A stretch of 64,000 bases of DNA, from NCBI RefSeq assembly GCF_015160855.1, contig NZ_CP063373.1, forward strand, positions 3,720,001 through 3,784,000, given 5' to 3'. The translations under genes were made by a program, and so were the position numbers. Source of the DNA: Streptomyces ferrugineus. Its GTDB lineage: Bacteria; Actinomycetota; Actinomycetes; Streptomycetales; Streptomycetaceae. Below, one piece after another: positions 5,081 through 19,850 of this stretch (positions within the stretch are counted from its first letter, which is position 1; every line of letters starts with the position of its first letter). The notes beneath the pieces were generated by a model. The model was not told the DNA's origin. It worked only from the letters and a program-made list of their open reading frames with translations, and made no database searches.

Positions 5081-5384
5081 GGGAGCCAGCGCAGCACGGG
5101 CAACGTTGCGAGAGGGTTGCACCCAGGGCCAGGAGCCGGGGCGCGGCGTCCATACGTCGGCGGAGCCACAGGGCGGGGCGGTGGCTGACGTCGAAGGAGA
5201 GCAGGCGGCCTCACGACGGCCCGCACCGCCATGCGGACCCAGCTGCGCGCCGTCTTCAGCGACATCGAACGCATCCGCGCCCATTCGCCCGAACTCTCTG
5301 GGAGTAGCGCGGGCCCCCGGGCACACGGCGAGGCCCTGAGCCGGGCCGAGGTCTCGGCACCGGCTCAGGGCCCAGAGGACGCCG
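5081..5384. other. intergenic stretch between DUF779 and the GH43 gene
   Basis: About 300 bases with no gene I can name. A 57-codon plus-strand frame from ATG 5231 to 5404 begins MRTQLRAVFSDIERIRAHSP, which looks codon-like and could be a remnant of a lost gene, but its second half runs through the terminator hairpin of the GH43 gene. Confidence 0.4.
5332..5372 (-). terminator. terminator hairpin of the GH43 gene
   Basis: GGCCCTGAGCCGG and CCGGCTCAGGGCC form a perfect 13-bp stem with an inner GCCGAG/CTCGGC extension, 12 nt beyond the stop of the minus-strand gene. Confidence 0.75.
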
Positions 5385-8300
5385 CTAGCGTCGGCCGACG
5401 GTGACGAAGCCCGCGGTCCGAGCGCCGGTGACGTTGTCGTACACGACATCACCGGTGGACTTCTTCCAGATCCTGATACGGAAGGTGTCCGGCGTGTCGG
5501 TGGCGGTGACCCGGAAGCCGTAGCCGCCGCTGCCGTTGACCTTGCCGGTGCCCTGGTAGACGGCCCGGGAGCCGCTCACCACGAGCCAGTCGGAGCCGGT
5601 GGAGCGGAACTTCAGGCGGGCCCGCCCGAAGTCGAAGGTGGCCTTCCCGAGGGGGGCGGCGGCTGCCTTCGGGTACGTGGCGGCGAAGGAGAAGACCGCC
5701 TTGCCCTTCAGGGTGGGCCTGTCCGGGTACGCCCCGGCCGCGGAGGTGATCAGGCCCGTGCCCAGCGCGGGACCGGCGGCGCGGTCGTAGACGATCAGCT
5801 CGGGCAGGGTGGTGCTGTCCGAGGCGTCGTCGTTGTCGGTGACGGTGACGACCGGTCGCTGGATGCCGGCCCGGGCGTAGGTGTGCTCGGCCCGGCACTC
5901 GGTGCCCTCGACCGTGCCCGTCGTCGGCTCGGTGCCGTCCTTCCAGTCGACCCGGCAGACGTGGGTGTCGCCGACGTCGGCGTCCCGGAACTCGGCCGTG
6001 ACGGTGGTGCGGTGGCCGGCCGGCACGGGGGCCGTCGGGCCGGTGGCGGAGGTGATCGCCGGGGTCCGGTTGACGATCGGGTCGATGCCCGTCAGGGTCG
6101 GGACGACCTTCTTGATCAGGCCGTCGGCGTCGAACTCCAGCTTGTCGAGGGTCGTTTCGCGGTGGGTGCCGTCACCGCCGGGGATGGCGAACCGGTGATA
6201 GGCGACGTACCACTCGTCGGTCTTCGGGACGTGCACCACCGAGTGGTGGCCGGGGCCCTTGATGCCGAGGGAGAGGTCCTTCTCCAGGATCACGCCGTGC
6301 TTGGTCCACGGGCCGGTGGGGGAGGGGCCGGTGGCGTAGGCGACGCGGTAGTTCTCGTCGCGGGTGTCGTTCTCCGACCACATGAAGTAGTAGGTGCCCT
6401 TGCGCTTGATGACGAAGGTGCCCTCGTTGTAGCCGCTCGGGGTGATGTCCTTGACCTTGGAGGTGTCGATGGACGTCATGTCGTCGTTCAGCGGGGCGAC
6501 GTAGGCACGGCCGTTGCCCCAGTACAGGTACGACTGGCCGTCGTCGTCGGTGAAGACGGCGGGGTCGATCATCTGGCCGCTGTAGGCGCCGCGGGCGACC
6601 AGCGGCTTGCCCAGGGGGTCCTTGAACGGGCCGGTGGGGGAGTCGGAGACCGCGACGCCGATGTTCGTGTCGGCGGAGTAGTAGAAGTAGTACTTGCCGT
6701 TCTTCTCCGTGGCCGTCGGCGCCCAGGCCCGGGCGTCGGCCCAGGAGACGTCCGGCCCCAGGTCGAGGATGACGCCGTGGTCCTTCCAGTGGACCAGGTC
6801 CTTGGAGGAATACGCCTTGAACTGCGTGCCGCTCCAGCCCTCGAAGCCGTCGGTGGTCGGGTAGAGGTAGTAGGTGTCGCCGAACCGGACGATGTTCGGG
6901 TCGGCGTTGAGACCCGGCAGAACCGGGCTCTTCATGATCAGCGCCTTGACCGTCCAGGTGCGCTTGGCGCCGTCGGAGCCCGTGACCTCGTACGTCACCG
7001 GCTCGCTGAAGTCCCGCACGCTGCCGGAGGCGGGGCTGATCGCCGCGCCGTGGGCCAGGGTGAACTCCGGGGCGAGCGCGGTGAGATCGGTGCCCTCCTT
7101 CATCGGCAGCGTGATCCGGCTGCCGGCGTTGTCGATGAGTGCGTCGACCTTCAGGTCCGGATGCGTCGCCCGCGCGATGCCCGCGGTGTTGCCGCTCAGC
7201 TCCATGACCTCGGCGGCCGTCAGGGCCCGGTCGTAGACACGGAAGTCGTCGACCTCACCGCCGAAGTACGGGTCGGCCGCGTACAGGGACCTGCCGATGT
7301 AACCGCTGTAGTCCTTGTTCGCGTCGTACAGCTCGGACGGCTTGATGGTGGTCGTCGTACGGGCCACCGCGACGCCGTCCACGTAGAGGACCATCGCGCC
7401 GGACGCGCCGTCCAGGGTGACGGTGACGTGCCGCCACTCGCCGGGCGTCAGCCGCGAGCCCGCCGTCAGCTTCGACTCCGCCGACCAACTGGCCTTCGTG
7501 ATGGCCGAGTAGAGGCTGGAGCCGCCGTTGGACGGGGTCGCGAACAGGTACTTGTCACTGTCCGGCCCGAGCCCGAACAGCCACTGGAAGTTGCCGCCGC
7601 CCTTCCACTTGGCGTACGTCGAGACGGTGACGCTGTCGGCGTCCTTCAGCACGCCGTTCGGGATCTTCACATACGGCGAGGTCGAGTCGCCGGACATCCG
7701 GAACGAGCCGCCGTCGACCCCGGTGCCGAAGTCGGGCGTACGGACGTAGGTGCCGTGGTGGCCGTGCCCGCTGGAGTCACGGGCGATGCTGCCGCCCGTC
7801 TCGTCGAAGTCGTACCGCAGCAGCAGGTCGGCGGGGACGTCGGCGCCCTCCTCGGACACGGTGACCTCGGCGCGGACGGGCAGCGCGGCACCGTCGGGCA
7901 GGCCGCCGGTCACGGTGAACGTGCCGGCCTGCGCGTACTTCGACTCCGGGACGTCCTCCCAGGAGACGGCGACAGGCCGCCGCACACCGTCGGCGTACTC
8001 GGCGATCACGGTGGCCGGCAGGACCGGCGCCTGACCGATCCGCGTCTTCACGCTCACGTCCTCGACGCTCTCCACCAGCTGGTCCGGCTGGTAGGCGCGC
8101 AGCAGACGGTCGTACTCGGCCTGCGTCACCGGGAGCACCGTGCCGTGGCGGGGCTTGGCGGGCAGGTCGTAGTCGGTGGACGGGGTCCAGGTGCCGGAGG
8201 CGAGGTCGGTGGTCTCGAAGGGGATGTAGCCGCGGCCGCCGAACTCGTCGAGGAACGCGTACCACTTGTCCTCGGTGTTCGACTTGAACACCAGCGGCCC

Positions 8301-10358
8301 CTCGGCCGCGTTCATCGCGCCCTTGCCGATGCCCTCGGCGACCGCGGTCCAGGACAGGTCGAGGAGGGAGTCGCTCTTCTCCTCGAAGATGAACTTGCTG
8401 TTGGGCGTGGAGGAGGTGTTGTTCCGCTCGTCCTTGGACAGGCGGAAGTACGTGCCGTCGTGCTCGATCACCGTGGAGTCGATGACGGAGTAGCCGCGGT
8501 CGATCCACACCTTGGGCTCGCTGAAGGTGTGGAAGTCGCGGGTGGTCGCGTACATCATGCGGTTGTACGTGCTGCCCGAGTGCGCATCGTTGTCGTACAG
8601 CTTCGAGGCCCAGAAGACCACGTACTCGCCGCGCTGTGCGTCGTAGAACGCCTCGGGCGCCCAGGTGTTGCCCGCGCTGTCCGGGGAGACCTTCACCAGG
8701 CGCTGGTCCGTCCAGTGGACGAGGTCGGTGGACTCCCACACCATGATGGACTTGCTGCCGGTGCGCTGCGCGGCGTCCCAGTCGCCGTTTCCGTAGATCC
8801 TGAGGTCGGTGGCGATCTGGTAGAACTTGTCGCCCTCGGGGGAGCGGATGATGAACGGGTCGCGCAGGCCCTTCTCACCGAGCGTGGAGGTCAGGACCGG
8901 CTTGCCGTCGTTCAACTCCCGCCACTTCAGCGGGTCGTCGCCCTTGCTGAGCGCGGCGTACAGCTGCTCGCCGTCAGCCGTGCCCTCGCCGGTGAAGTAG
9001 CTGAACATATAGCCCTTGAGGGCCTCTTGCCTTGGTAGTTCGGGCACCTTGGCGGTGAAGGCGCGGGTCGTGCTCGCCTCCCCCTTGGTGACGGTGGCGG
9101 TGAGTTTGACGGTGGTGGCCCCGGCGCCGTGGGCGGGGCGGTGGACCAGGCCGTCGGAGGTGATGACGTCCGGCTTCGCGGAGGACCAGGTGACGTCGGT
9201 GCCGTAGGAGCCGGTCGCCGGGAGGGTGAGGTTGCCGCGTACGTCGTCGAGGTTGTGGACGGTCAGCTCCTTGGCCGCCTGCTCGGTGGCCGCCTCGTCG
9301 TCGAAGGCGGGGAGCACCGTGACCTCGAAGGTCCTGGTGTCGGTCACGGTGCCCTTCTTCAGGGTCGCCGTGAGCGTGGCGTGGCCGTCGGGTTCGCCGG
9401 CGGCGGGGCGGGTCACCTCGCCGGAGTCGGACACGACGGCGGGGTTGTCGCTGGCCCAACCGATCGTGGAGCCGCCGGCCGGACCGGTCTTCGGCAGGTC
9501 GAGGTCGGCCGTGACGGCGCTGGTGTCACCCAGGCTCAGCGCGGCCTTGTCGTCGGCGACGCCCTGCGTGGCGACGGGGAGGGCGAGTTGCTCGACCTCG
9601 GAGCCGGCGAGGGCGCGGTCGTAGACCCGGAAGTCGCGGATCCGGCCCTTGAACAGCTTGTCGCCGGAGTAGACCGACCTGCCGATGTGGTTGGCGGTGG
9701 TGGTGCCCGAGCCTATGGCGCCCGGGGTGATGCTGACGGCGGTGTTGCGGCCGACCTCGACGCCGTCCTCGTACAGGACACCGGTGCTGCCGGTCTGGGT
9801 GTAGGTGAGGTGCTTCCAGACCGAGCGGGTCAGGTTGTGGGAGTCGGCGGGCCTGGTGGTCTGCTCGGTCGACCAGTTGCCGGTCGCGATGGACGTCCGC
9901 AGGGAGTTGCCGGTCGTGAACAGATACCCGTTCCCGTTGCCGCCGCTGGAGTTGCCGAAGCCGTAGATGAAGTACGGCGTGCTCTGGGCGGAGTCGACCA
10001 TCACGTCCATCGAGACGGAGATCGAGTCCATGCCCTTCATCACGTCGTCGGGCACCTTGAGGTAGGTGTCGGAGCCGTTGAAGGCGAGCCCCTGACCGGT
10101 GCCCGACCAGTCGGCGGTGCCGTTCACCGTCGCGTCCCGGCCGTGGCCCGAGGCGTCGGTGACGGTGCTGCCGGCGGCGGCGTCGAGCTTGTACCAGAGG
10201 GCGAGGCCGGCGGTGATCTCGGCCGCTTCGGCCGGGTCGGCGGCCTGTGCGGGAAGGGCGGGTGCGGCGAGTCCCAGCAACAGCGACGCGGCGGTGAGCC
10301 CGGCGAGTCGGCCCGCCAGGCGTCTCGCGCGGGCACGGACGCGTGCGATGTACGGCAT
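5385..10358 (-). CDS. giant secreted protein with two GH43 modules
   Basis: 1,657 residues from ATG 10358 (MPYIARVRARARRLAGRL, preceded by AGCAGGGAAA); an in-frame ATG 45 nt upstream is less likely. A signal peptide ends near LPAQA. Order of domains, approximate residues: LamG-like concanavalin module 55-250; Ig-like repeats 257-430; first GH43-type five-bladed propeller 445-750 (LRDPFIIRSPEGDKFYQI, NTWAPEAFYD, NAAEGPLVFKS); Ig-like 760-835; second LamG 843-1045; linker domain 1060-1140; second GH43 1143-1420 (LNADPNIVRFGDTYYL, MIDPAVFTDDDG, YNEGTFVIKRKG, giving the Asp, Asp and Glu expected of this family); PKD-like 1433-1525; C-terminal beta domain to 1657. It likely removes arabinose or xylose side chains from plant hemicellulose outside the cell. 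Substrate specificity is inferred. Confidence 0.9.
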   Translation of the reverse strand: MPYIARVRARARRLAGRLAGLTAASLLLGLAAPALPAQAADPAEAAEITAGLALWYKLDAAAGSTVTDASGHGRDATVNGTADWSGTGQGLAFNGSDTYLKVPDDVMKGMDSISVSMDVMVDSAQSTPYFIYGFGNSSGGNGNGYLFTTGNSLRTSIATGNWSTEQTTRPADSHNLTRSVWKHLTYTQTGSTGVLYEDGVEVGRNTAVSITPGAIGSGTTTANHIGRSVYSGDKLFKGRIRDFRVYDRALAGSEVEQLALPVATQGVADDKAALSLGDTSAVTADLDLPKTGPAGGSTIGWASDNPAVVSDSGEVTRPAAGEPDGHATLTATLKKGTVTDTRTFEVTVLPAFDDEAATEQAAKELTVHNLDDVRGNLTLPATGSYGTDVTWSSAKPDVITSDGLVHRPAHGAGATTVKLTATVTKGEASTTRAFTAKVPELPRQEALKGYMFSYFTGEGTADGEQLYAALSKGDDPLKWRELNDGKPVLTSTLGEKGLRDPFIIRSPEGDKFYQIATDLRIYGNGDWDAAQRTGSKSIMVWESTDLVHWTDQRLVKVSPDSAGNTWAPEAFYDAQRGEYVVFWASKLYDNDAHSGSTYNRMMYATTRDFHTFSEPKVWIDRGYSVIDSTVIEHDGTYFRLSKDERNNTSSTPNSKFIFEEKSDSLLDLSWTAVAEGIGKGAMNAAEGPLVFKSNTEDKWYAFLDEFGGRGYIPFETTDLASGTWTPSTDYDLPAKPRHGTVLPVTQAEYDRLLRAYQPDQLVESVEDVSVKTRIGQAPVLPATVIAEYADGVRRPVAVSWEDVPESKYAQAGTFTVTGGLPDGAALPVRAEVTVSEEGADVPADLLLRYDFDETGGSIARDSSGHGHHGTYVRTPDFGTGVDGGSFRMSGDSTSPYVKIPNGVLKDADSVTVSTYAKWKGGGNFQWLFGLGPDSDKYLFATPSNGGSSLYSAITKASWSAESKLTAGSRLTPGEWRHVTVTLDGASGAMVLYVDGVAVARTTTTIKPSELYDANKDYSGYIGRSLYAADPYFGGEVDDFRVYDRALTAAEVMELSGNTAGIARATHPDLKVDALIDNAGSRITLPMKEGTDLTALAPEFTLAHGAAISPASGSVRDFSEPVTYEVTGSDGAKRTWTVKALIMKSPVLPGLNADPNIVRFGDTYYLYPTTDGFEGWSGTQFKAYSSKDLVHWKDHGVILDLGPDVSWADARAWAPTATEKNGKYYFYYSADTNIGVAVSDSPTGPFKDPLGKPLVARGAYSGQMIDPAVFTDDDGQSYLYWGNGRAYVAPLNDDMTSIDTSKVKDITPSGYNEGTFVIKRKGTYYFMWSENDTRDENYRVAYATGPSPTGPWTKHGVILEKDLSLGIKGPGHHSVVHVPKTDEWYVAYHRFAIPGGDGTHRETTLDKLEFDADGLIKKVVPTLTGIDPIVNRTPAITSATGPTAPVPAGHRTTVTAEFRDADVGDTHVCRVDWKDGTEPTTGTVEGTECRAEHTYARAGIQRPVVTVTDNDDASDSTTLPELIVYDRAAGPALGTGLITSAAGAYPDRPTLKGKAVFSFAATYPKAAAAPLGKATFDFGRARLKFRSTGSDWLVVSGSRAVYQGTGKVNGSGGYGFRVTATDTPDTFRIRIWKKSTGDVVYDNVTGARTAGFVTVGRR

Positions 10359-10615
10359 GTGGTTTCCCTGCTGAGGCATGGCCGGGGCCTCGGCCATGGG
10401 CACCCTGCCGTTTCGGCTGTGTGACGTCGTGTTGCGAGAGTGTCAATCGGGGTGTGGCACAGCGTCAAGAGTTTTCGAACAATGTCCGACCTGTCGAACG
10501 TTCTGGAGGGTATCGACGCGGTCATCTGCCGTTCACCGCTCCTCAGCTCTACGCTGACAGGGATCGGGAAAACCGGCGGTCGAGTGCGCCACGGTGGCTT
10601 TCGGGGGGCAACGGG

Positions 10616-12076
10616 GTGGTGGAGGAGCGCAGCCCGGCGCGCATCCGAAATGAGCTGGTGGCCGAGATCGTCGACGCACTCCAGATGAGCGCCACGCTGC
10701 GGCTCCCCGGGAGCCGGCATCTGTGGACCACCTATCTGTGCGAGGAACTCGGCGTCTCCCTTGAGCCGTTCACCGGCGAGGCGTTACGTCCCTGGCTGCT
10801 CGGCCTCGTCGAGCGGTGCGCGCGGCTGCCCGACGGACTGCCCTGTCTGGCGAGGGCGTTGCGCTATCTGGAGCAGGAGTCCACCTCGGTCACCTCGCTG
10901 CTGCAGCTCCTGGAGGAGTGGGAGGCGGCGGCGTTCTTCAGCGGTGTGGACCTGCGCGGGCTGCGGCCCGTCCTGGAGACCCTGGGGCCTCCGGGGCTGC
11001 CGGCCCTCGCGCGGCGCGCCAGCCGGTCACGGGTCCAGGAACTGCCGTCGTGGTGCGATTCGGGCTGGCGGGTGTTCCTCCGGCTGGCCGGGGAGAACTC
11101 GGCGAAGGGCGAGATCCCCCCAAGTCTGGCCTTCCTGGCCCTGGTCGCCGAGGAACTCGCCACGGACGGCCGCCTGGAGGAGGCCGAGCAGCTCCGTCGC
11201 TGGCATCGGCTGCGTCAGTACGAGTGGGGGCTGGACGGTGACGCGGCGGACTGGGAGCTCTCCCTGGTCCCCGCCTACCTGATCATCCAGTTCGAGCCGG
11301 ACGGTCTCGACTCCGAGCGCTACTACCTGTCCCACTGGCACCAGTCCGACAGCGCGGGCTGGCATCCCGTACAGGGCGAGACCCGGCACCTGCACCGGGA
11401 CGAGCTGCATGCCGAGGTCGAGCGGCTGATCGAGGAGACCGAGGAGAGATGGGCCGATCTGACACAGCCGGTCGTCCTGGAGTTCATCCTGCCGTGGGAG
11501 TTGCTCAACGAACCCGTCGAGTGGTGGCACAAGGAGTCGTCGTCCGCGCTGCCCACCCCCCTGGTGATGGACTACATGGTGTTCCTGCGCAGCCTCGACC
11601 GGCTGCGAAGAACCGCATGGCATCGCCCCTGGCGGAACAAGTGGCGCCGGCTCAGCGAACAGCCCGCCGACAGCCACTCGTACTGGAGCCACCCGGCCGA
11701 CGGCCCGAGTTACTACTTCCACCTGGAACGCGAACTCAAGGAGGACCAGCACGCGGTGTGCCTGATCCTCAGCGCGCCCCCGGGCGGCAACGGAGAGGCC
11801 GACCGCTACGAGTTCCTCGCCGGGCTCCGCTCCGGCGTTCCCCTGATGATCTGGCACCGCCGTGACTGCGCCGACCCGGCGTTCAGGGAGGCCGTCAGCG
11901 AGATCGTGCAGGACCGGGGACTCGCCAGCCTCGCGGACCGGGTGGCCCGGCTGCGCACCGAGGCCCTCGCACTCGGCCCGGACCAGTGGGACGGCCATGT
12001 CGGCCGGCATCTGGCGATCCTCCTGGACGATCCGGACCACCAGCCCGGACTGCGCAGCCCGGACCGAGCGTCCTGA
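10616..12076 (+). CDS. EAD2 + VMAP-C effector-type protein
   Basis: 486 residues from GTG 10616, which has GGGGGG eight bases upstream; the frame is open further 5' but overlaps the GH43 promoter side and reads as non-coding. Residues about 5-95 (RNELVAEIVDALQMSATLRLPGSRH and following) resemble effector-associated domain 2. Residues about 200-475 match the vWA-MoxR-associated protein C-terminal domain: VVLEFILPWELLNEPVEWW, FLRSLDRLRRTAWHRPWRNKW, AVCLILSAPPGG, GVPLMIWHRRDC, HVGRHLAILLDDP. Such proteins belong to NTPase-linked conflict or signalling systems. It is followed 131 bp later by the FxsT-like gene in the same direction. Its biochemical activity is unknown. Confidence 0.82.
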   Translation: MVEERSPARIRNELVAEIVDALQMSATLRLPGSRHLWTTYLCEELGVSLEPFTGEALRPWLLGLVERCARLPDGLPCLARALRYLEQESTSVTSLLQLLEEWEAAAFFSGVDLRGLRPVLETLGPPGLPALARRASRSRVQELPSWCDSGWRVFLRLAGENSAKGEIPPSLAFLALVAEELATDGRLEEAEQLRRWHRLRQYEWGLDGDAADWELSLVPAYLIIQFEPDGLDSERYYLSHWHQSDSAGWHPVQGETRHLHRDELHAEVERLIEETEERWADLTQPVVLEFILPWELLNEPVEWWHKESSSALPTPLVMDYMVFLRSLDRLRRTAWHRPWRNKWRRLSEQPADSHSYWSHPADGPSYYFHLERELKEDQHAVCLILSAPPGGNGEADRYEFLAGLRSGVPLMIWHRRDCADPAFREAVSEIVQDRGLASLADRVARLRTEALALGPDQWDGHVGRHLAILLDDPDHQPGLRSPDRAS

Positions 12077-12207
12077 GCCCGGACCCGGACTCTTGCGTCC
12101 GCCTGGCCCCACTGCGAGGCTGAGGGCGTGGATGACTCTCCCGCGCGCCGGTCCGGCCTATGCGCGTGCCCGCCGGTGGCTGTCGGCCCCTCGACGTAGT
12201 ACTCCCC

Positions 12208-15200
12208 ATGACTGCTGACGGCGGGGCGGGCCGGGCGAACCCGACGGAGACCTCCTTGCGGGCACTGCGGGCCCTCGCCCCGCCGGACGGCTCGCCACCT
12301 GCCGGAGATCTGCTCGTGGCGATCGACGCCCACCCGACCATGCGGGTGTGGCAGGACACCCTGGACTCGGCGTTCGCGGAACTGCGCGCCCTGGGGCTCT
12401 TCGACCGGGTCGACACCGTGCGCCTGCCCGGCACCGACCCGGACGACGCGGCCGGCGTCCGGGAGCAGCCGTGGCCCGCCCCCGAGACGGGCCGGCACCG
12501 GATGGTGCTCGTGGTCACCGACGGGCTCGCGGCGGGCTGGCGGACCGGCTCGGTGTTGCTCGCGCTGCGTCCCGAACTGAGCCGGGGGCCGACCGCGATC
12601 GTCCATCTGCTGCCCCAACCCCTGTGGTTCCGCAGCGGGTTGAACGTCCGCCACTTACAGGTGAGCGCACACCGGCCGTGGACCGCGAACGACACCTACG
12701 ACTGGCGGCCGCGCGAGGTTCCGCTGGAGATCGACGACGCCGACGGCGAGGCGGAGCGCGACGTCATGCCGTTGCCCGTCCTCGAGTTCACCGAGCGATC
12801 GATGTCGGCCTGGGCGAGGCTGGTGCACGACGGGAACGGGGACCGGCTGGAGATGTCGGCCGTCCTGACACCGATCGGCCCCACTCCGGAGGCCGAGGAC
12901 CCGCCGGAGCCACGGCTTGTGCGGCCCCCGGTCATGTCCGCCCATGACTGTGTGTCGGACCTGCGCGCAGCGGCCTCACCCACCGCGTTCACCCTCGCCA
13001 CGCAACTCGCCGCCGCGCCGCTGTCCCTTCCCGTCGTACGCATGCTCATCGCTCAGACCCCCGGCGCCGGACCGGGACACCTGAGCGAGGTGCTGCTGAG
13101 CGGTCTGCTGCGGCCCGTGACCGGTGCCGGCGACGGCCGGACGGACATCGCCTTCGAGTTCGCCCCGGAAATCCGTGAGGAACTCCTGGCACTCGCCCGC
13201 CGTGCCGATACCATTCGCGTGCTGCGCGATGTGCGCAGACTGGTGAACAACTCGGCGAATACCACGGAGATTCCGCTGCTTCCGCCTGTCTCAGAGGCAC
13301 TGGACAGCACCGCCGTTCCGACCGTCACCCGACGGAACCTTCCTTTCCTCAGAGTCGAACTCCACGCTCTGCAGGCGTTGTCCGGGCCCTTCCTGGAACG
13401 CGCCGAAATGCTCGCCATCGTGCTCAACTCGTTCGACCAGTACGATGCGGGCGCTGTATCTCCATCCGACCGGGCACCCCGCCCGGAACTGCCTGAAATA
13501 CTCTCGAGAGGAGAGTCGGGCATGGCCGTCTCGCCCCTGCCTCCGGCAGACGAGGGAAACGTCTCGACACCCCGTGTCTGGGGGAACATCCCACCACGCA
13601 ACCCCAACTTCACCGGCCGAGCCGACCTGTTGGAGCTGCTCGCCGCCCGGTTGCGGGAAGGCACGACGACCGTACTGCCGGAGGCACTGCACGGCATGGG
13701 CGGTGTCGGCAAGACGCAGCTCGCCATCGAGTACGCGTACCGGCATCAGTCGGAGTACGACATCGTGTGGTGGATTCCCGCCGAACGGCCCGGCCAGATA
13801 GGGCAGGCATTGGTGGAACTCGCGCAACGGCTGGGTATCAACACCTCCTCGGAGGCCAACATCGCCGGCCCGGCCATCCGTGAGGCGCTTCGGGAGGGAC
13901 GGCCGTATTCCCGATGGCTGCTCATCTTCGACAACGCCGAAAGTCCGGAACGAGTGCGGCATTATTTCCCCACGGGCGGCAGCGGCACCATTCTGGTGAC
14001 ATCCCGCAACCGACGGTGGAGCCTGGTCGGTGGCTCACTCGAAGTGGACGTCTTCACCCGTGAGGAAAGCAAGGAATTGCTGCGCCGCAGCGGGGCGCCC
14101 ATCGACGACGGCGAGGCCGACCGGCTCGCGGACGCCCTCGGCGACCTGCCGCTCGCCCTGGAGCAGGCGGCCGCCTGGCGCGCCGAGACGGGCATGCCGG
14201 TGGCCGAGTATCTGCGGCTGTTCGAGACCAAGCGGTCCGAACTGCTCGAACTGTCCCCGCCGTTGGACTACCAGCTGCCGGTCGCCGCGGCGTGGAACGT
14301 CTCGCTGGACCACCTGGAGACCCGCAGCGTGGCGGCGCTCAGACTGCTGCAACTGTGCTCGTACTTCGCCCCGGGACCCATCTCCCGCGCCATCTTCTCC
14401 GGGCTCGGCGGCGGCAGCATCGTCCCGGAGCTGGACCACGCCCTCAACGACCCGATCCGGCTGGCCCGGGCGCTCAGGGAGGTCAACCGGTACTCCCTCG
14501 CCCGCATCGACCACCGCACGAACTCCGTGGAGATGCACCGCCTCGTACAGGCCGTCCTGATCAACCGGATGTCCCTCGACGAGCGGGAGCGCATGCGCAG
14601 CGGCGCGCACACGCTGATGGCGGCCGCGGACCCGAAGGAACCCGCCCAGCCGGACAACTGGCCCCGGTACGCCGAGCTCTACGGCCATGTCGTCGCGTCG
14701 GAGGCGGTCGCCTCCGACCAGCTCTGGGTGCGTGAACTGGTGATGAACATCGCCAAGTACCTCTACTACTGGGGCGACTGGGAGATCGCCGTCGACTTCT
14801 GCGAGCAGTCCTGGGAGACCTGGCAGCGGCGGTTCGGCCCGGACGACACGGCCAGCCGCAGGATGGCCTGGTGGCTGTGTTTCGTCTATCTCAGGACGGG
14901 CCGCCACGAGGACGCGAGGGTGCTGTCGGAACGGCTGCGGGAGATCTACGAGTCCACCGCCCCGCCGGACGGCGAGGACGACCGCGAGGACGCGATCGAG
15001 GCGCTGAGCCTGGTGGCGGCCGTCCGGCGGGTTCTCGGCGAGTTCGCCGCCGGGGCGGAACTGGACACCCTCGTCTACGAACGCGCCCTGCGGCTCTACG
15101 GCGAGGACGATCCACAGACGCTCTACGCGGGCCACAACCTCGCGGTGAGCCTGAGGCTGACCGGTGAGTTCCACCGGGCACTGGAACTGGACGAGCGCAC

Positions 15201-16092
15201 GCATGCGCTGAAGGTGCGGCTGTTCGGCTCGGACCACCAGCAGTCGCTGGTCACCCAGGGCGGTCTCGCGATCGACGTCCGCGAGACCGGGGACTACATC
15301 CGGGCCAGGTCCCTGCAGCAAGCCGCCCTGGACGCCAACCGCCTGGTCTTCGGCGCCACCAACCCCGCGACCGTCCAGGCGACGAAGCAGCTCAGTGAGG
15401 CCTGCCGCAAGGAGGGCGACCACGAGACCGCGCTCGAACTCGCCCGCGAGGCCTTCACCGAGTTCACCAGGCGGTACGGCCACACCCACCCCCGCTCCCT
15501 GGACGCGGCGCTCGCCCTGGCGATCTCGGAACGCCAGAACGGAGACCTCGACTCCGCCCTGGACATGGGGATGAAGGCCTGTGAGCGCTACCGGCGGCTG
15601 TTCACCCCCACCCACCCGCACACACTCGCCGCCGACGTGGACCTGGCGGTGACGCTACGGCTGCTCGGCCGCCCGGAGGAGGCCAGGGACCTGGACCGGA
15701 ACGCCCTGTCCCAGCTGACGGAGCGCCTGTCGGCGGGGCACCCCATGGCCCTCGCCTGTGCGATCAACCTCGCCAGCGACCTGAGCGCGCTGGGCGAGGT
15801 GGCCGAGGCACGCCGGCTCGGTGAGGAGACGCTGGAACGCTGCCGGTCGGCTCTCGGCCCCGATCACCCGACGACGCTGGCATGCGCGGGAAATCTGGCA
15901 CTGGACCAGATCGCCACGGGCGCGCGGGAGGAGGGCACTGGAGAGGATCTGCTGGAGCAGACCGTGGAACGGCTCAGGGCCGTCCTGGACACGCCCCGGC
16001 TCCGCTCACCGAGCGCGGCCCCGCATCCCGCCACCCGGCAGGCGCAGAACCGGGAACGCGCCAACTGCGCGATCGATCCCATGCCTCTGTAG
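12208..16092 (+). CDS. fxsT: FxsT-like protein: vWA/SAV_2336-type + NB-ARC + TPR
   Basis: 1,294 residues from ATG 12208. The ribosome site there is poor, and TTG 12256 with GGAG upstream is an alternative. Residues about 20-170 (LLVAIDAHPTMRVWQDTL, RHRMVLVVTDGLAAGW) resemble the SAV_2336 N-terminal vWA-like domain. From about 460 comes an NB-ARC STAND NTPase: NPNFTGRADLLELLAARL, Walker A HGMGGVGKTQLAIEYAY near 495, Walker B RWLLIFDNAE near 571, then a winged-helix part. From about 840 to the end are tetratricopeptide repeats of the kinesin light chain type (LAVSLRLTGEFHRALELDE and further copies). This order is that of the FxSxx-COOH system TPR protein. It probably senses or scaffolds; its partner is not shown. 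It ends at a two-way terminator facing the HExxH gene. Confidence 0.85.
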   Translation: MTADGGAGRANPTETSLRALRALAPPDGSPPAGDLLVAIDAHPTMRVWQDTLDSAFAELRALGLFDRVDTVRLPGTDPDDAAGVREQPWPAPETGRHRMVLVVTDGLAAGWRTGSVLLALRPELSRGPTAIVHLLPQPLWFRSGLNVRHLQVSAHRPWTANDTYDWRPREVPLEIDDADGEAERDVMPLPVLEFTERSMSAWARLVHDGNGDRLEMSAVLTPIGPTPEAEDPPEPRLVRPPVMSAHDCVSDLRAAASPTAFTLATQLAAAPLSLPVVRMLIAQTPGAGPGHLSEVLLSGLLRPVTGAGDGRTDIAFEFAPEIREELLALARRADTIRVLRDVRRLVNNSANTTEIPLLPPVSEALDSTAVPTVTRRNLPFLRVELHALQALSGPFLERAEMLAIVLNSFDQYDAGAVSPSDRAPRPELPEILSRGESGMAVSPLPPADEGNVSTPRVWGNIPPRNPNFTGRADLLELLAARLREGTTTVLPEALHGMGGVGKTQLAIEYAYRHQSEYDIVWWIPAERPGQIGQALVELAQRLGINTSSEANIAGPAIREALREGRPYSRWLLIFDNAESPERVRHYFPTGGSGTILVTSRNRRWSLVGGSLEVDVFTREESKELLRRSGAPIDDGEADRLADALGDLPLALEQAAAWRAETGMPVAEYLRLFETKRSELLELSPPLDYQLPVAAAWNVSLDHLETRSVAALRLLQLCSYFAPGPISRAIFSGLGGGSIVPELDHALNDPIRLARALREVNRYSLARIDHRTNSVEMHRLVQAVLINRMSLDERERMRSGAHTLMAAADPKEPAQPDNWPRYAELYGHVVASEAVASDQLWVRELVMNIAKYLYYWGDWEIAVDFCEQSWETWQRRFGPDDTASRRMAWWLCFVYLRTGRHEDARVLSERLREIYESTAPPDGEDDREDAIEALSLVAAVRRVLGEFAAGAELDTLVYERALRLYGEDDPQTLYAGHNLAVSLRLTGEFHRALELDERTHALKVRLFGSDHQQSLVTQGGLAIDVRETGDYIRARSLQQAALDANRLVFGATNPATVQATKQLSEACRKEGDHETALELAREAFTEFTRRYGHTHPRSLDAALALAISERQNGDLDSALDMGMKACERYRRLFTPTHPHTLAADVDLAVTLRLLGRPEEARDLDRNALSQLTERLSAGHPMALACAINLASDLSALGEVAEARRLGEETLERCRSALGPDHPTTLACAGNLALDQIATGAREEGTGEDLLEQTVERLRAVLDTPRLRSPSAAPHPATRQAQNRERANCAIDPMPL

Positions 16093-16150: not shown

Positions 16151-18013
16151 TCAGACCGTCGGAAGGCCGCCGCCCAGCCAGGCCGCCAGGCGCACCGGGT
16201 CACCCGGCCGCCCGGTGTCCGCCACGAGGACCCGCTGCACCGCCCGGGCCCGTTCGGGATGCCGGGTCAGCAACCGGGCCGCATCCGGCTCGACCCCCTC
16301 GGCGGTCAGCGCGCCGCCGAGACCCGCCCACGCGGCGGCATCGTCAGGGGCCGCCGCCAGACGTGCGACGTAGGACCGCCTGGCGGCACCCGGCTCGCCG
16401 GCCGCGAGCAGCGCGTCGCCCTCGAGGGCCCCCTTGACGTGCGCCACCGCTCCGGCCGGATCGGCGCCCAGCAGTCCCCCGCACGCGGCGGTTCCCTCGA
16501 GCCGGTGCCGGACCAGCGTCGCCAGGCTGTCCAGCCGGTTCGCGGACCGGTCAGGCGCCAGTCGGGTGCCGGTGTCCGAGGACTCCGGTGGGCCGTCGGC
16601 CGCCTCGGTCCAGCGCCGTGCGGCCGACTCCGCCCACTCCCGGGCCGGGCGCAGATGGTACGCCCGCCAGCGGGCCCGGTGATTGTCCGCGCACATGTGG
16701 GCCAGCAGCCCGGGTACATCGGGCACCGGGTCGTCCAGCCACGCCGCGCACCGACCCCGCAGGATGCCGAGGAACCGGTGGCCCAGCGGGGTCAGCCGCC
16801 GGTGGTCGCGCACCGAGTCGAGCACCGACCACAGCTGTGAGCGCCACAGCGCGAACTCGAAATGCCCGAGCTCCGACGCCCCGCCGACCGCCGAGTGGCG
16901 ATGAGTGCGCCAGAAGCGGGTGACGCCCGTGAACGCGTAGATGCCCTGGAGCAGTCCGCCCAGCGGCCGGGGATCGTCACGCCAGGGCGCGTACAGACGT
17001 TCGTCGCTCTGGGGTGCGTCCATCCGGTACAGGGGCGTCAGATGGAGCAGACCGCTCAGCTTCGAGTGCTGGAACTCGTGCACCATCGTGGCGGCCAACT
17101 GCACCGCGTCGTCCGGTTCGGAGACCAGTACGCCGCCGAAGGCGTCCCCGGTGGAGGCGCTGCGCGGCCGGAACCGCTCGCCGGCTCCGACGGGACTGAA
17201 GGACATCAGCCCGCGGCGCATCGCTGTCGCGGTCTGCGGTTCGTCCCGCAGCAGCAGCGTCCAGGTGCGTTCCAGGAGTTCCTGCCAGCGCTCGGCCCGG
17301 TCGTCGGGCAGCCGCTCCGGCACGGTCGGCCTGGGGTAGGTCCGGTACGGGTCCAGGTCGTCCAGGGCCAGGGCGAGCTCGCTGTCCCCGTGCCCGGCCC
17401 GCAGCCAGCGCAGCGGGTGCCAGCCCGGCCTGCCGCGATCGGGGTGCGGGGCCACCCGGACGCGGCCGTTCGGCGTCGTGATCCAGGTCTCGCCCGCCGC
17501 CGACCGCACCCACACCGTCGTCCACGGGTCGTCGGCGGTTACCTCGGCAGCTCCCAGTGTGGGCAGCAGCGCGTACCCGTACCGCACCGGCACGGTGATC
17601 GTGAAGTCCAGGCCCGCCCGGACCCCGGCCGCGGCGGCCAGGGCCGACAGATGACCGAGGACGACCCACAGCGGTGTCGCCTCGTCCTCGGTGCCGCGCA
17701 GTCGGCGCAGGGCGGACGACAGCCACATCCCGGTCTGCGGGTACAACAGGACCGCGTCCACCGCGGCGGGCTTGGCGCGCTGGGCGCGGGCCAGGAGTTC
17801 CCACGCCTCGCTCAGCGAGAGCGAGCCGTCGGACGGCCCCGGCATCCCGCCCGACGTCATCTCGTCCAGCATGCGCAGCAGCAGGAGCCTGCGGCTCCGT
17901 TCCGCGGACACCAGGAGGTCGACGACATCGTGGTCGCCGTCTCCTTCGGCGAGGGCGACGAGGCTCTCCGCCGGAACCCGGTGGCGCGGCAGAACGGGAC
18001 TGCTACCCGGCAT
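16151..18013 (-). CDS. HExxH-type putative peptide beta-hydroxylase
   Basis: 620 residues from ATG 18013 with AAGGGACA upstream. The centre carries LAATMVHEFQHSKLSGLLHL, with HEFQH at residues 312-316, in the setting seen in HExxH putative peptide-modification proteins, now called alpha-ketoglutarate HExxH-type peptide beta-hydroxylases. Those enzymes use Fe(II) and alpha-ketoglutarate to hydroxylate side chains of ribosomal peptides rather than act as zinc proteases. The gene starts 29 nt after the stop of the 59-residue peptide gene, so the two almost certainly share a transcript and the peptide is the likely substrate. The C-terminal 150 residues are Ala/Arg-rich with a possible TPR-like segment (GEPGAARRSYVARLAAAPDD). 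Family assignment is firm; the hydroxylation of this peptide is inferred. Confidence 0.82.
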   Translation of the reverse strand: MPGSSPVLPRHRVPAESLVALAEGDGDHDVVDLLVSAERSRRLLLLRMLDEMTSGGMPGPSDGSLSLSEAWELLARAQRAKPAAVDAVLLYPQTGMWLSSALRRLRGTEDEATPLWVVLGHLSALAAAAGVRAGLDFTITVPVRYGYALLPTLGAAEVTADDPWTTVWVRSAAGETWITTPNGRVRVAPHPDRGRPGWHPLRWLRAGHGDSELALALDDLDPYRTYPRPTVPERLPDDRAERWQELLERTWTLLLRDEPQTATAMRRGLMSFSPVGAGERFRPRSASTGDAFGGVLVSEPDDAVQLAATMVHEFQHSKLSGLLHLTPLYRMDAPQSDERLYAPWRDDPRPLGGLLQGIYAFTGVTRFWRTHRHSAVGGASELGHFEFALWRSQLWSVLDSVRDHRRLTPLGHRFLGILRGRCAAWLDDPVPDVPGLLAHMCADNHRARWRAYHLRPAREWAESAARRWTEAADGPPESSDTGTRLAPDRSANRLDSLATLVRHRLEGTAACGGLLGADPAGAVAHVKGALEGDALLAAGEPGAARRSYVARLAAAPDDAAAWAGLGGALTAEGVEPDAARLLTRHPERARAVQRVLVADTGRPGDPVRLAAWLGGGLPTV

Positions 18014-18042
18014 CGGCGGTGTCCCTTGCTGTGATCGGAAGG

Positions 18043-18222
18043 TCAGTCGTCGTACGAGGGGTTGAAGTCGCCGCCGGCACTCGCCTGCGGGTTGTCGATC
18101 TTGAGAAGGATGCTGGGCAATGAAGGAGCGACAACCGAGTCGTCGAGGCTGCGCAGCATCTCAATTGATACCCCCGTGAGATCGACCAGATCGGACTCGA
18201 CGGCGGCCATCGGCTGATCCAT
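18043..18222 (-). CDS. FxsA-like precursor peptide, 59 residues
   Basis: A short frame just under 60 codons, from ATG 18222 (AAGGGG about ten bases upstream) to TGA 18043. The leader MDQPMAAVESDLVDLTGVS then MLRSLDDSVVAPSL matches the conserved leader style of FxSxx-COOH precursors (Asp-Leu, Val, LxxLDDSVLxxxL). The C-terminus is GGDFNPSYDD, so the terminal Phe-x-Ser-x-x motif that names the family is absent; the Phe and Ser are seven and four residues from the end and the peptide ends Asp-Asp. It lies between the trypsin-EAD2 gene (62 bp upstream) and the HExxH gene (29 bp downstream). It is probably a ribosomally made peptide modified by the HExxH enzyme. No product of this gene is known to me. 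Confidence 0.8.
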   Translation of the reverse strand: MDQPMAAVESDLVDLTGVSIEMLRSLDDSVVAPSLPSILLKIDNPQASAGGDFNPSYDD

Positions 18223-18284
18223 GACGGCCAGGCCCCTTCTTCGAAGTGCTAGCTTTTCACGACTCCCACATCATGGCCCATCTG

Positions 18285-19391
18285 TCAGCCGTCGGCCCCA
18301 GTGGGGGTGGACGACACGGCCGCAGGTCCGCCGCCGTCCGGTCCCTGACGCCGCGCCAGCTCGGCGGCTTCCCGGTCCAGCCGTGCCCTGGCGGCGGTGT
18401 CCCCCTCCAGCAGCCGTATGGAGTCGAGCAGTTCGTCCAGCGTGCCGGGGTAGCGCAGGCAGGTGCGCACGATGCCGAAGACGTCCACGCGGAGGGTGGC
18501 GTCGCGGGGGCTGTTCGCCGCGATCGCCGGGTTGACGTTCTGCAGCACGAGATCGAGGCGTGTCCTGTCCCGGACGACGGGCAAGGCGGTGAGCGCTGTC
18601 ACCAGACCGTCCAGCTCGCGCAGCGAGACGGTGTCGGGCAGGCCCCCGAGACGCACGGCGTCGGACGGCGGCGGGGCCTGGTGCCCTATCAGGCCGTCCC
18701 GTCCGGTGGGGAACCCGGCGGTACGCGCCAGCAGGTCCAGCTCCTCGTCCGCCAGGAGTTCGAACCACCGATCCACGCGGGCCACGGCGAGGCGTCCCGG
18801 CCCGTCCGGGCGATGGTGTGCCCGCACGAGACCGATGAGCGCCCCGGTGTGCCAGACCGCCGCACCGGACATGCCCTCCCACGGTGAGCGAGCGGGGTCC
18901 GGATCGGGATCCGGCGCCGCCACGACGAACTCGAGCGTGCCCTCCCTGCGGTTGGACAGGACGGCGATGGTTCCCGTGGCGTGGCACGAGTCGCGGTACC
19001 GGTCGTGCGAGCCGTCCCGGAGCTTGAAGCGCGGGAAGCCCATGGCGGTGCAGCGCAGCACCACGTCGTCGTCGGGCACCGGACCGTACCGGGGCGGCGC
19101 GATGGGCGCGTGGCGCGTCGGGCCGGCGACCTCCAGAAGAGCCACATCCGCGGACTCGGCGAACAGCCGGATGCGTGCGGGGGCGGACCACTGGGCCGGC
19201 AGGTCGGCGTTGAACCGCACGGTGACGGTGGCGGCCGGGGCCGGGGAGACGGCGTGCGCGGCGGTGAGGACCCAGCGGTCGCCCACCAGATACCCGGACC
19301 CGCGGCGGCCGGGTCCGCCTCCGTCCGGGGCGACGATGATCTCGGCGACCCGGCCGGGGTCGAGGCCCGGTGCCCGGGGTGGTGTGACCAC
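18285..19391 (-). CDS. trypsin-like protease with EAD2 domain
   Basis: 368 residues from GTG 19391 (GGAG upstream); the open frame extends further 5' but reads as non-coding. The N-terminal part is a chymotrypsin-fold serine protease with a complete triad: His46 in LTAAHAV, Asp82 in SADVALLEV and Ser175 in WEGMSGAAVW. No signal peptide is seen, so it acts in the cytosol. Residues about 265-340 (LDGLVTALTALPVVRDRTRL, ADVFGIVRTCL-like pattern, GTLDELLDSIRLLEGD) are effector-associated domain 2, an adaptor also found in the VMAP protein at 10.6 kb, so the two may be linked by EAD2-EAD2 contact. It heads the operon of precursor peptide and HExxH enzyme and is divergent from the Trypco2 gene. Confidence 0.85.
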   Translation of the reverse strand: MVTPPRAPGLDPGRVAEIIVAPDGGGPGRRGSGYLVGDRWVLTAAHAVSPAPAATVTVRFNADLPAQWSAPARIRLFAESADVALLEVAGPTRHAPIAPPRYGPVPDDDVVLRCTAMGFPRFKLRDGSHDRYRDSCHATGTIAVLSNRREGTLEFVVAAPDPDPDPARSPWEGMSGAAVWHTGALIGLVRAHHRPDGPGRLAVARVDRWFELLADEELDLLARTAGFPTGRDGLIGHQAPPPSDAVRLGGLPDTVSLRELDGLVTALTALPVVRDRTRLDLVLQNVNPAIAANSPRDATLRVDVFGIVRTCLRYPGTLDELLDSIRLLEGDTAARARLDREAAELARRQGPDGGGPAAVSSTPTGADG

Positions 19392-19544
19392 GGCGTCAAC
19401 GCTCCGGCACGGGCAACCGTGCGACGGTGCAGGCGAGTTCGCGCATCCTCCATGCATACCCGGGTCGGCTGGGAGCCAGTCGGCGGACGCGCGGCCCCGG
19501 TAGCATCGGGAGCGGGCGGGAGCGGGCGGGAGAGGGGGAGCAGG

Positions 19545-19850
19545 GTGGAACTCACCGAGATGATCAGGGAGTTGCGGGCCGAGCTGATCGCCGCGATGAC
19601 CGACGACACGAGGCAGCCGTTGCGCTTCGAACTGGGTCCTGTGGAGGTGGAGGCGACGGTGGCCGTGTCCCGCGAGGCGGGCGCCGGCGGGAAGGTGCGG
19701 TTCTGGGTCGTCGAAGGCGGCGCGGACGCCAAGTACGCGCAGTCGACCACCCATCGCATCACGCTCACCCTCCACCCCAAGGCCGTCGCCGCCGACGGGA
19801 CCACCCGGACCGCGATGGTCTCCGGTGACGAGGTGGCCGGGGAGCGGTGA
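19545..19850 (+). CDS. Trypco2 (trypsin-co-occurring domain 2) protein
   Basis: 101 residues from GTG 19545, with GAGGGGGAG at ribosome-site distance. The sequence VELTEMIRELRAELIAAM, then GPVEVEATVAVSREAGAGGKVRFWVV and STTHRITLTLHPK is the small helix-plus-beta module called trypsin-co-occurring domain 2. Such proteins are nearly always encoded beside trypsin-EAD proteins, as here (divergent, about 150 bp apart). It probably binds or is cleaved by the protease; that is inference. The upstream bases hold three copies of GGGAGCGGGC-like repeats. Its stop is 6 bp from the convergent DedA gene. Confidence 0.85.
   Translation: MELTEMIRELRAELIAAMTDDTRQPLRFELGPVEVEATVAVSREAGAGGKVRFWVVEGGADAKYAQSTTHRITLTLHPKAVAADGTTRTAMVSGDEVAGER

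Follow-up and report, generated by a model that had tools for sequence, protein, structure and literature searches.

A candidate radical-SAM-free peptide hydroxylation module in a VMAP cassette of Streptomyces ferrugineus

Peptide-processing systems have been described in about 20% of actinobacterial VMAP-ternary systems, combining a gene for a zincin-like peptidase with that of a small, diverging precursor of the FxSxx, RxD, acidic or FtsH type (Kaur et al. 2020, eLife e52696, PMC7159879). In the accessible portion of that paper, a radical SAM gene is named for the FxSxx type and a distinct one for the FtsH type; the RxD and acidic types are described without such a gene, and in both the vWA protein carries a fused AP-ATPase with TPRs. 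The HExxH enzyme is there taken as a peptidase that releases the peptide, and a linking role is proposed for EADs generally. Thus, a RiPP-like pair lacking a radical SAM enzyme, which the first-pass annotation of the present locus had put forward as novel, belongs to a type in print since 2020.

Later work established members of the aKG-HExxH family as Fe/aKG oxygenases, and HExxH enzymes working without a radical SAM step are already published (PMC12636437; PMC13060819). According to the available text of the first of these reports, PflC and PosC act on Gln residues preceding a C-terminal ARMD motif, hydroxylating them with attendant oxidative cleavage; the Arg, Met and Asp of the motif are individually dispensable for PosC; Gln, Val or Ser at the first position leads to beta-hydroxylation without cleavage; PflC displays proteolytic activity when the leader is absent; and ChlH requires a pre-formed cyclophane (PMC12636437). 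The second, as far as its text was available, reports that PesO, co-expressed with an MNIO, hydroxylates a Pro before R(V/T)DN (PMC13060819).

Against this background, we analyzed a 64,000-nucleotide stretch of DNA from Streptomyces ferrugineus (henceforth the window), in which a 59-codon gene had been reported 29 nt upstream of an HExxH gene. The coordinates, strand and spacing given for this pair are right (Table 1), and by eye AAGGGA at 18022-18027 furnishes the ribosome-binding site ahead of the HExxH gene. The neighborhood as originally drawn was incomplete, as it omitted the FxsT, VMAP and trypsin-EAD2 genes next door as well as the genome's separate FxsB cassette. The FxsT-family protein scores 842 bits against NF040586 (cut-off 300); its N-terminus corresponds to NF041121, with a D-x-G-x-T...TDG-like pattern and without a Pfam vWA match, and is hence vWA-like by motif only. 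The VMAP gene adjoins it and probably starts downstream of 10343; likewise, the true start of the trypsin-EAD2 gene, whose catalytic motifs look complete by eye, probably lies inside its frame. Two MoxR queries yielded no tblastn match at E<=1e-4 within the 64-kb window, and no transporter family was matched among the cassette genes scanned. Sugar ABC transporter genes lie beyond the cassette and were matched at only 2 and 1 of 76 related loci. Also beside the cassette is a 1672-aa frame with GH43, Laminin_G, aBig_2 and PKD domains (5385-10403, minus strand).

Table 1. Features of the cassette, with positions counted from the first letter of the window.
Feature	Position	Strand	Remark
59-aa precursor-like peptide (P0001)	18043..18222	-	leader ESDLVDLTGVSIEMLRSLDD; tail GGDFNPSYDD
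Shine-Dalgarno-like GAAGAAGGGG ahead of the peptide gene	18233..18242	-	by eye
aKG-HExxH-type peptide beta-hydroxylase family protein (P0002), 620 aa	16151..18013	-	weakly TPR-like C-terminal extension
HEFQH motif, residues 312-316	17066..17080	-	H312, E313, H316 invariant in 47 aligned sequences
APWRDDPRP motif, residues 342-350	16964..16990	-	alike in ChlH (PWREDLRP)
FxsT-family protein: SAV_2336 N-terminal (vWA-like) domain, NB-ARC ATPase, TPR	12160..16092	+	convergent with the HExxH gene
VMAP protein (EAD2, VMAP-M0, VMAP-C 176 bits)	10343..12076	+	profile search
Trypsin-like protease fused to EAD2	18285..19775	-	TAAH and GMSGAA motifs by eye; upstream of the peptide gene

At E<=1e-10, 221 of the 295 same-genus genomes contain a relative of P0002, counting FxsB fusions; at E<=1e-40, the 64 positives among 394 genomes from the class fall in 18 of 137 genera. 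For comparison of neighborhoods we used two sets of loci, 40 (L036-L075, the window's own included) and 76 (L104-L179; from Streptomyces, Actinoplanes, Frankia, Amycolatopsis, Micromonospora, Lentzea and others), which are the best matches by likeness to P0002 rather than a random sample and extend up to ~10 kb on each side. Dropping 10 repeats and the window's own copy leaves 105 distinct loci, some of which are cut by contig ends, so that absences weigh less there. An FxsT-like protein is encoded at 100 of the 105, a vWA-like domain at 93, VMAP at 91 and MoxR at 55, while the trypsin-EAD query matches 41, nine of them via the EAD part alone. A MoxR match is absent from 37 of the 91 VMAP-bearing distinct loci. 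In the clade nearest the window (L036-L049) VMAP directly adjoins the FxsT-like gene, and MoxR is matched at 0 of 14 loci. At 14 loci two divergent HExxH genes flank the trypsin-EAD gene (L036-L038, L104-L108, L111, L113, L117, L146, L153, L169); in 13 of them both enzymes are paired with a peptide of their own, and here the peptide-HExxH pair seems to have been duplicated and specialized.

The 59-codon frame had been called a gene, and the related loci bear this out. A hand-written pattern recovers a credible leader-type peptide ahead of 92 of 134 HExxH places (82 of 122 in distinct loci) and none at the other 42 (40 in distinct loci), many of which belong to MoxR-bearing relatives; three spurious frames were removed ahead of these counts, and the pattern overlooked at least one real case, the peptide of L042 being visible in its locus. 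Since the same leader type, with the recurrent consensus AVES.LVDLSGVSLE.LRS.D, is found ahead of related HExxH genes, the frame is more than a chance occurrence. Moreover, of 64 related peptide pairs compared, 59 have a dN lower than dS, as do 50 of 53 after removing repeated loci, though the pairs are not independent and none of those listed contains the window's own peptide.

The claimed likeness of the leader to those of FxSxx precursors also holds: LVDLTGVS in the window peptide corresponds to LVDITGFS in the same genome's own FxsA. Used as a lone query, P0001 retrieves 3 proteins, and profile A1 retrieves 84. Two of the latter, P0087 and P0088, have FxSxx ends and may have been drawn in by P0003, which was included in the profile. 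P0007, 81% identical to the window peptide, shares the precomputed Pfam family PF27839 with P0087, itself named FxSxx-COOH; hence, the leaders may be one family, and a Pfam family covering them may already exist. The PF27839 model is absent from the Pfam version searched, which gave no match. The same family is precomputed on P0021, P0023 and others, taking in RxD-, other- and FxSxx-tailed peptides, and several related peptides carry the source name 'FXSXX-COOH protein'. Throughout the related peptides the leader is conserved far better than the tail, as might be expected if the peptide, instead of being a substrate, served the HExxH enzyme as a small partner or regulator. We hold this to be highly improbable, because the recurrence of a C-terminal RxD in otherwise unlike tails, along with the RiPP-like split between leader and core, argues for a substrate.

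The assignment of its partner to the peptide beta-hydroxylase type is corroborated by TIGR04267, against which P0002 scores 163.2 bits (cut-off 40) with the HExxH intact; it is the single match to that family in the genome. Against NF040587, the FxsBH form, it scores 134 bits, under the cut-off of 225. By sequence, P0002 matches the solved structure 22nu_A over residues 20-428 (E 2.4e-44) and ChlH (8s5f) over residues 302-369 (E 3.4e-8); both alignments cover the HExxH and the PWRxDxRP block, and some 200 C-terminal residues with weak TPR likeness fall outside them. Along with the three motif residues in Table 1, W344, R345, P348, R349 and P350 are invariant in the 47 aligned sequences, and all 43 HExxH places of L036-L075, the window's own included, have an open frame in which WR..PRP comes after HExxH. 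The published proposal that such a protein is a metallopeptidase, cutting the precursor to free a C-terminal peptide (Kaur et al. 2020, PMC7159879), draws on a motif that is indeed zincin-like, and the leaderless PflC assays lend it some substance (PMC12636437). We nevertheless regard it as quite unlikely here, given that the characterized family members, as described in the available text, are Fe/aKG oxygenases (PMC12636437; PMC13060819), that P0002 possesses the PWRxDxRP block alike in ChlH, and that the peptide gene has a different protease candidate beside it, the trypsin-like gene, whose triad looks complete.

The first-pass annotation found no radical SAM enzyme nearby and called for a survey of homologues for FxsB. 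In that survey the FxsB query was negative at the window's own locus and at all 105 distinct related loci drawn from the 40 and 76 fetched; it was positive in 5 of 5 FxsB control loci, which indicates that the query works. FxsC was likewise matched at 0 of 105, a result that weighs less, as the FxsC query was positive in just 3 of 5 controls. A related HExxH-type stretch is present in the FxsB loci too. Frames of at least 250 codons were scanned for CxxxCx[FYWLHMI]C. The 5 FxsB control loci had one match apiece, and a total of 4 arose among 116 loci, a set that counts repeats and the window's own; we rejected these four as radical SAM genes: the frame in L132 reads as low-complexity and non-coding, those in L106 and L108 lie opposite an HExxH gene, and that in L039 lies opposite a called frame (5370-6224, minus strand). 

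The genome search for FxsB that had also been suggested does find one over the cut-off, at G000:C1:5600019-5601146, 1.86 Mb from the window's pair, but it sits in an FxsA-FxsB-FxsC-FxsT cassette of its own, with the second FxsT of the genome and an FxsA-like peptide ending in FDSAL (TIGR04268 22.3 bits, under the cut-off of 28). The FxsT of this cassette has a KGGVGR-type AAA ATPase N-terminus, and a SLATT-domain gene lies near the cassette (L005:5822-14761). More broadly, 183 of 295 genomes have an FxsB at E<=1e-60 and 112 do not. Among 34 other genomes with a fetched HExxH locus, 18 lack FxsB at that threshold, absence being taken from the list of 183 positive genomes and each of the 18 being listed as at least 99% complete; G195 was counted as positive on a weak match (1.5e-66), and G216, one of the 18, has at L064 the HExxH gene only, with its neighbors absent.

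These data bear on whether the distant FxsB could cyclize the window peptide in trans before the HExxH enzyme acts. Such a scheme would accord with an FxsB that scores over its cut-off, with the LVD(L/I)TG common to both leaders and with the cyclized substrate of ChlH (PMC12636437). It is weakened by the FxsB-less genomes and by FxsB having its own FxsA, FxsC and FxsT alongside, and, of 82 unique related peptides, none has aromatic-x-Ser in its C-terminal 12 residues and 3 have aromatic-x-[SND]. We therefore judge it very unlikely. By the same evidence, together with the FxSxx end found in 0 of the 82 (the window's included) and P0001 giving no family match to TIGR04268 at E<=1, the first supposition, that the locus is an FxSxx system missing its maturase, finds no support. 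The part of that description that stands is a precursor-enzyme pair without a nearby radical SAM enzyme, plausibly hydroxylated by the HExxH protein alone. The sequences show that VMAP and an FxsT-like STAND ATPase with TPRs co-occur, in the absence of FxsB, with the conserved precursor-like peptide and a standalone aKG-HExxH family enzyme, and that a trypsin-EAD2 gene joins them in the nearest relatives. They also show that the active-site block is conserved and that the pair occurs in FxsB-less genomes.

The tails point to a different C-terminal signature. R-x-[DE] forms the very C-terminus of 37 of the 82 unique related peptides, against an average of 0.9 in shuffled tails (kinship uncorrected). 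With database relatives included, RxD is at or near the end in 72 of 154 peptides, a set that leaves out P0087 and P0088 and contains near-duplicates; a Pro stands two before the Arg in 44 of these 72 (tail background 0.08) and in 30 of 55 distinct RxD tails. The window peptide terminates in FNPSYDD, with YDD in place of RxD; its NPSYDD keeps the Pro and the final Asp, Tyr replacing Arg. In some related tails a small residue (S, G or A) precedes R-x-D, and ARMD, the RxD tail that PflC and PosC cut off (PMC12636437), invites the alternative of a PflC-like oxidative backbone cleavage, in which an alpha carbon in the tail is oxidized and the last residues are removed, leaving a C-terminal amide. 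This outcome appears unlikely to us, as PosC tolerates the individual loss of Arg, Met and Asp, and the Ser of the window's NPSYDD is among the first-position residues reported to give hydroxylation only (PMC12636437). A Cys is found near the end in 16 of 82 peptides of distinct loci, and in 14 of these cases the locus also has a MoxR match. Cys tails (GSC, CVS, AAGCDAGDL) replace RxD at L054-L058, L060-L062, L071, L072, L144, L154, L163, L166, L168 and L172. The four types listed in the accessible portion of Kaur et al. 2020 (PMC7159879) do not include this one, which may represent a further substrate class with other chemistry.

Taken together, the reading that we favor, and think rather probable, is that the locus is a radical-SAM-free peptide-processing module of an actinobacterial conflict cassette of the VMAP kind, a MoxR-less variant of the RxD type, whose enzyme hydroxylates an uncyclized peptide. 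Briefly, the conserved leader (ESxLVDLSGVSLExL) would dock the peptide on the HExxH enzyme, which, with Fe(II), O2 and 2-oxoglutarate, would hydroxylate one or more residues just ahead of the C-terminal acidic motif. Within DFNPSYDD the site would most likely be P55, or else N54 or F53, and no prior cyclization would be needed. The product might then be a hydroxylated but linear peptide that the trypsin possibly trims. Instead of being exported as an antibiotic, it would act internally, as a signal for the NB-ARC/TPR protein or its effector, with EAD2 perhaps linking trypsin and VMAP, after the general proposal for EADs by Kaur et al. (PMC7159879).

A broader and decidedly tentative conjecture starts from the apparent recurrence of RxD tails in three aKG-HExxH settings, namely this cassette, PflC/PosC and PesO, as far as the latter are described in the available texts. 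It holds that an RxD C-terminus, or its YDD variant, is a substrate signature of aKG-HExxH enzymes across phyla, and that the linear hydroxylated product in actinobacteria is a ligand or amplifier of a STAND immune ATPase. We consider this possible but doubtful; as PosC needs none of Arg, Met or Asp singly (PMC12636437), the likeness may be fortuitous. If true, the hydroxylation site could be predicted as the residue or residues just before RxD, and the actinobacterial product would be an oxidized peptide second messenger made without radical SAM chemistry.

The open-licence literature that we searched contains no mention of the RxD-tail link among aKG-HExxH settings; along with it, the reassigned chemistry, the evidence from FxsB-less genomes and the MoxR-less variant are new as far as searched. 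They would turn the 2020 prediction of a peptidase that releases a peptide into a specific oxygenase hypothesis that names the peptide, the enzyme and the residues. They also support the independence of this branch from FxsB and tie standalone HExxH enzymes of Streptomyces, Amycolatopsis, Frankia and Actinoplanes to conflict-type cassettes, as opposed to obvious antibiotic clusters.

Set beside the known systems, the window shares with PflC/PosC and PesO an HExxH enzyme without a radical SAM step. Their precursors end in ARMD or R(V/T)DN; unlike the window, they come from clusters of Pseudomonas and Peribacillus that also encode MNIO enzymes and transporters, with no VMAP or STAND ATPase mentioned in the available texts (PMC12636437; PMC13060819). 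With ChlH and the beta-hydroxylase domain of FxsBH the window enzyme has HExxH and PWRxDxRP in common; it is, however, standalone and extends about 200 C-terminal residues beyond the ChlH match, and ChlH needs its cyclophane first (PMC12636437). From the FxSxx-COOH system (FxsA-FxsB-FxsC-FxsT), whose FxsT family and similar peptide leader it shares, it differs in that FxsB and FxsC were not found and that the peptide has neither an FxSxx tail nor a TIGR04268 match. The closest correspondence is with the RxD type, which, going by the accessible account (Kaur et al. 2020, PMC7159879), likewise has VMAP, an HExxH gene with a small precursor and no radical SAM gene; the fusion of its ATPase to the vWA protein has a candidate counterpart in the window, where the NB-ARC and TPR parts follow a domain that is vWA-like by motif. 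The window departs from it in that no MoxR was found in the 64 kb, the peptide ends in YDD and the enzyme is reread as an oxygenase. As the match otherwise extends to all but MoxR and the altered RxD, we place the locus as a variant of that type rather than a plain member.
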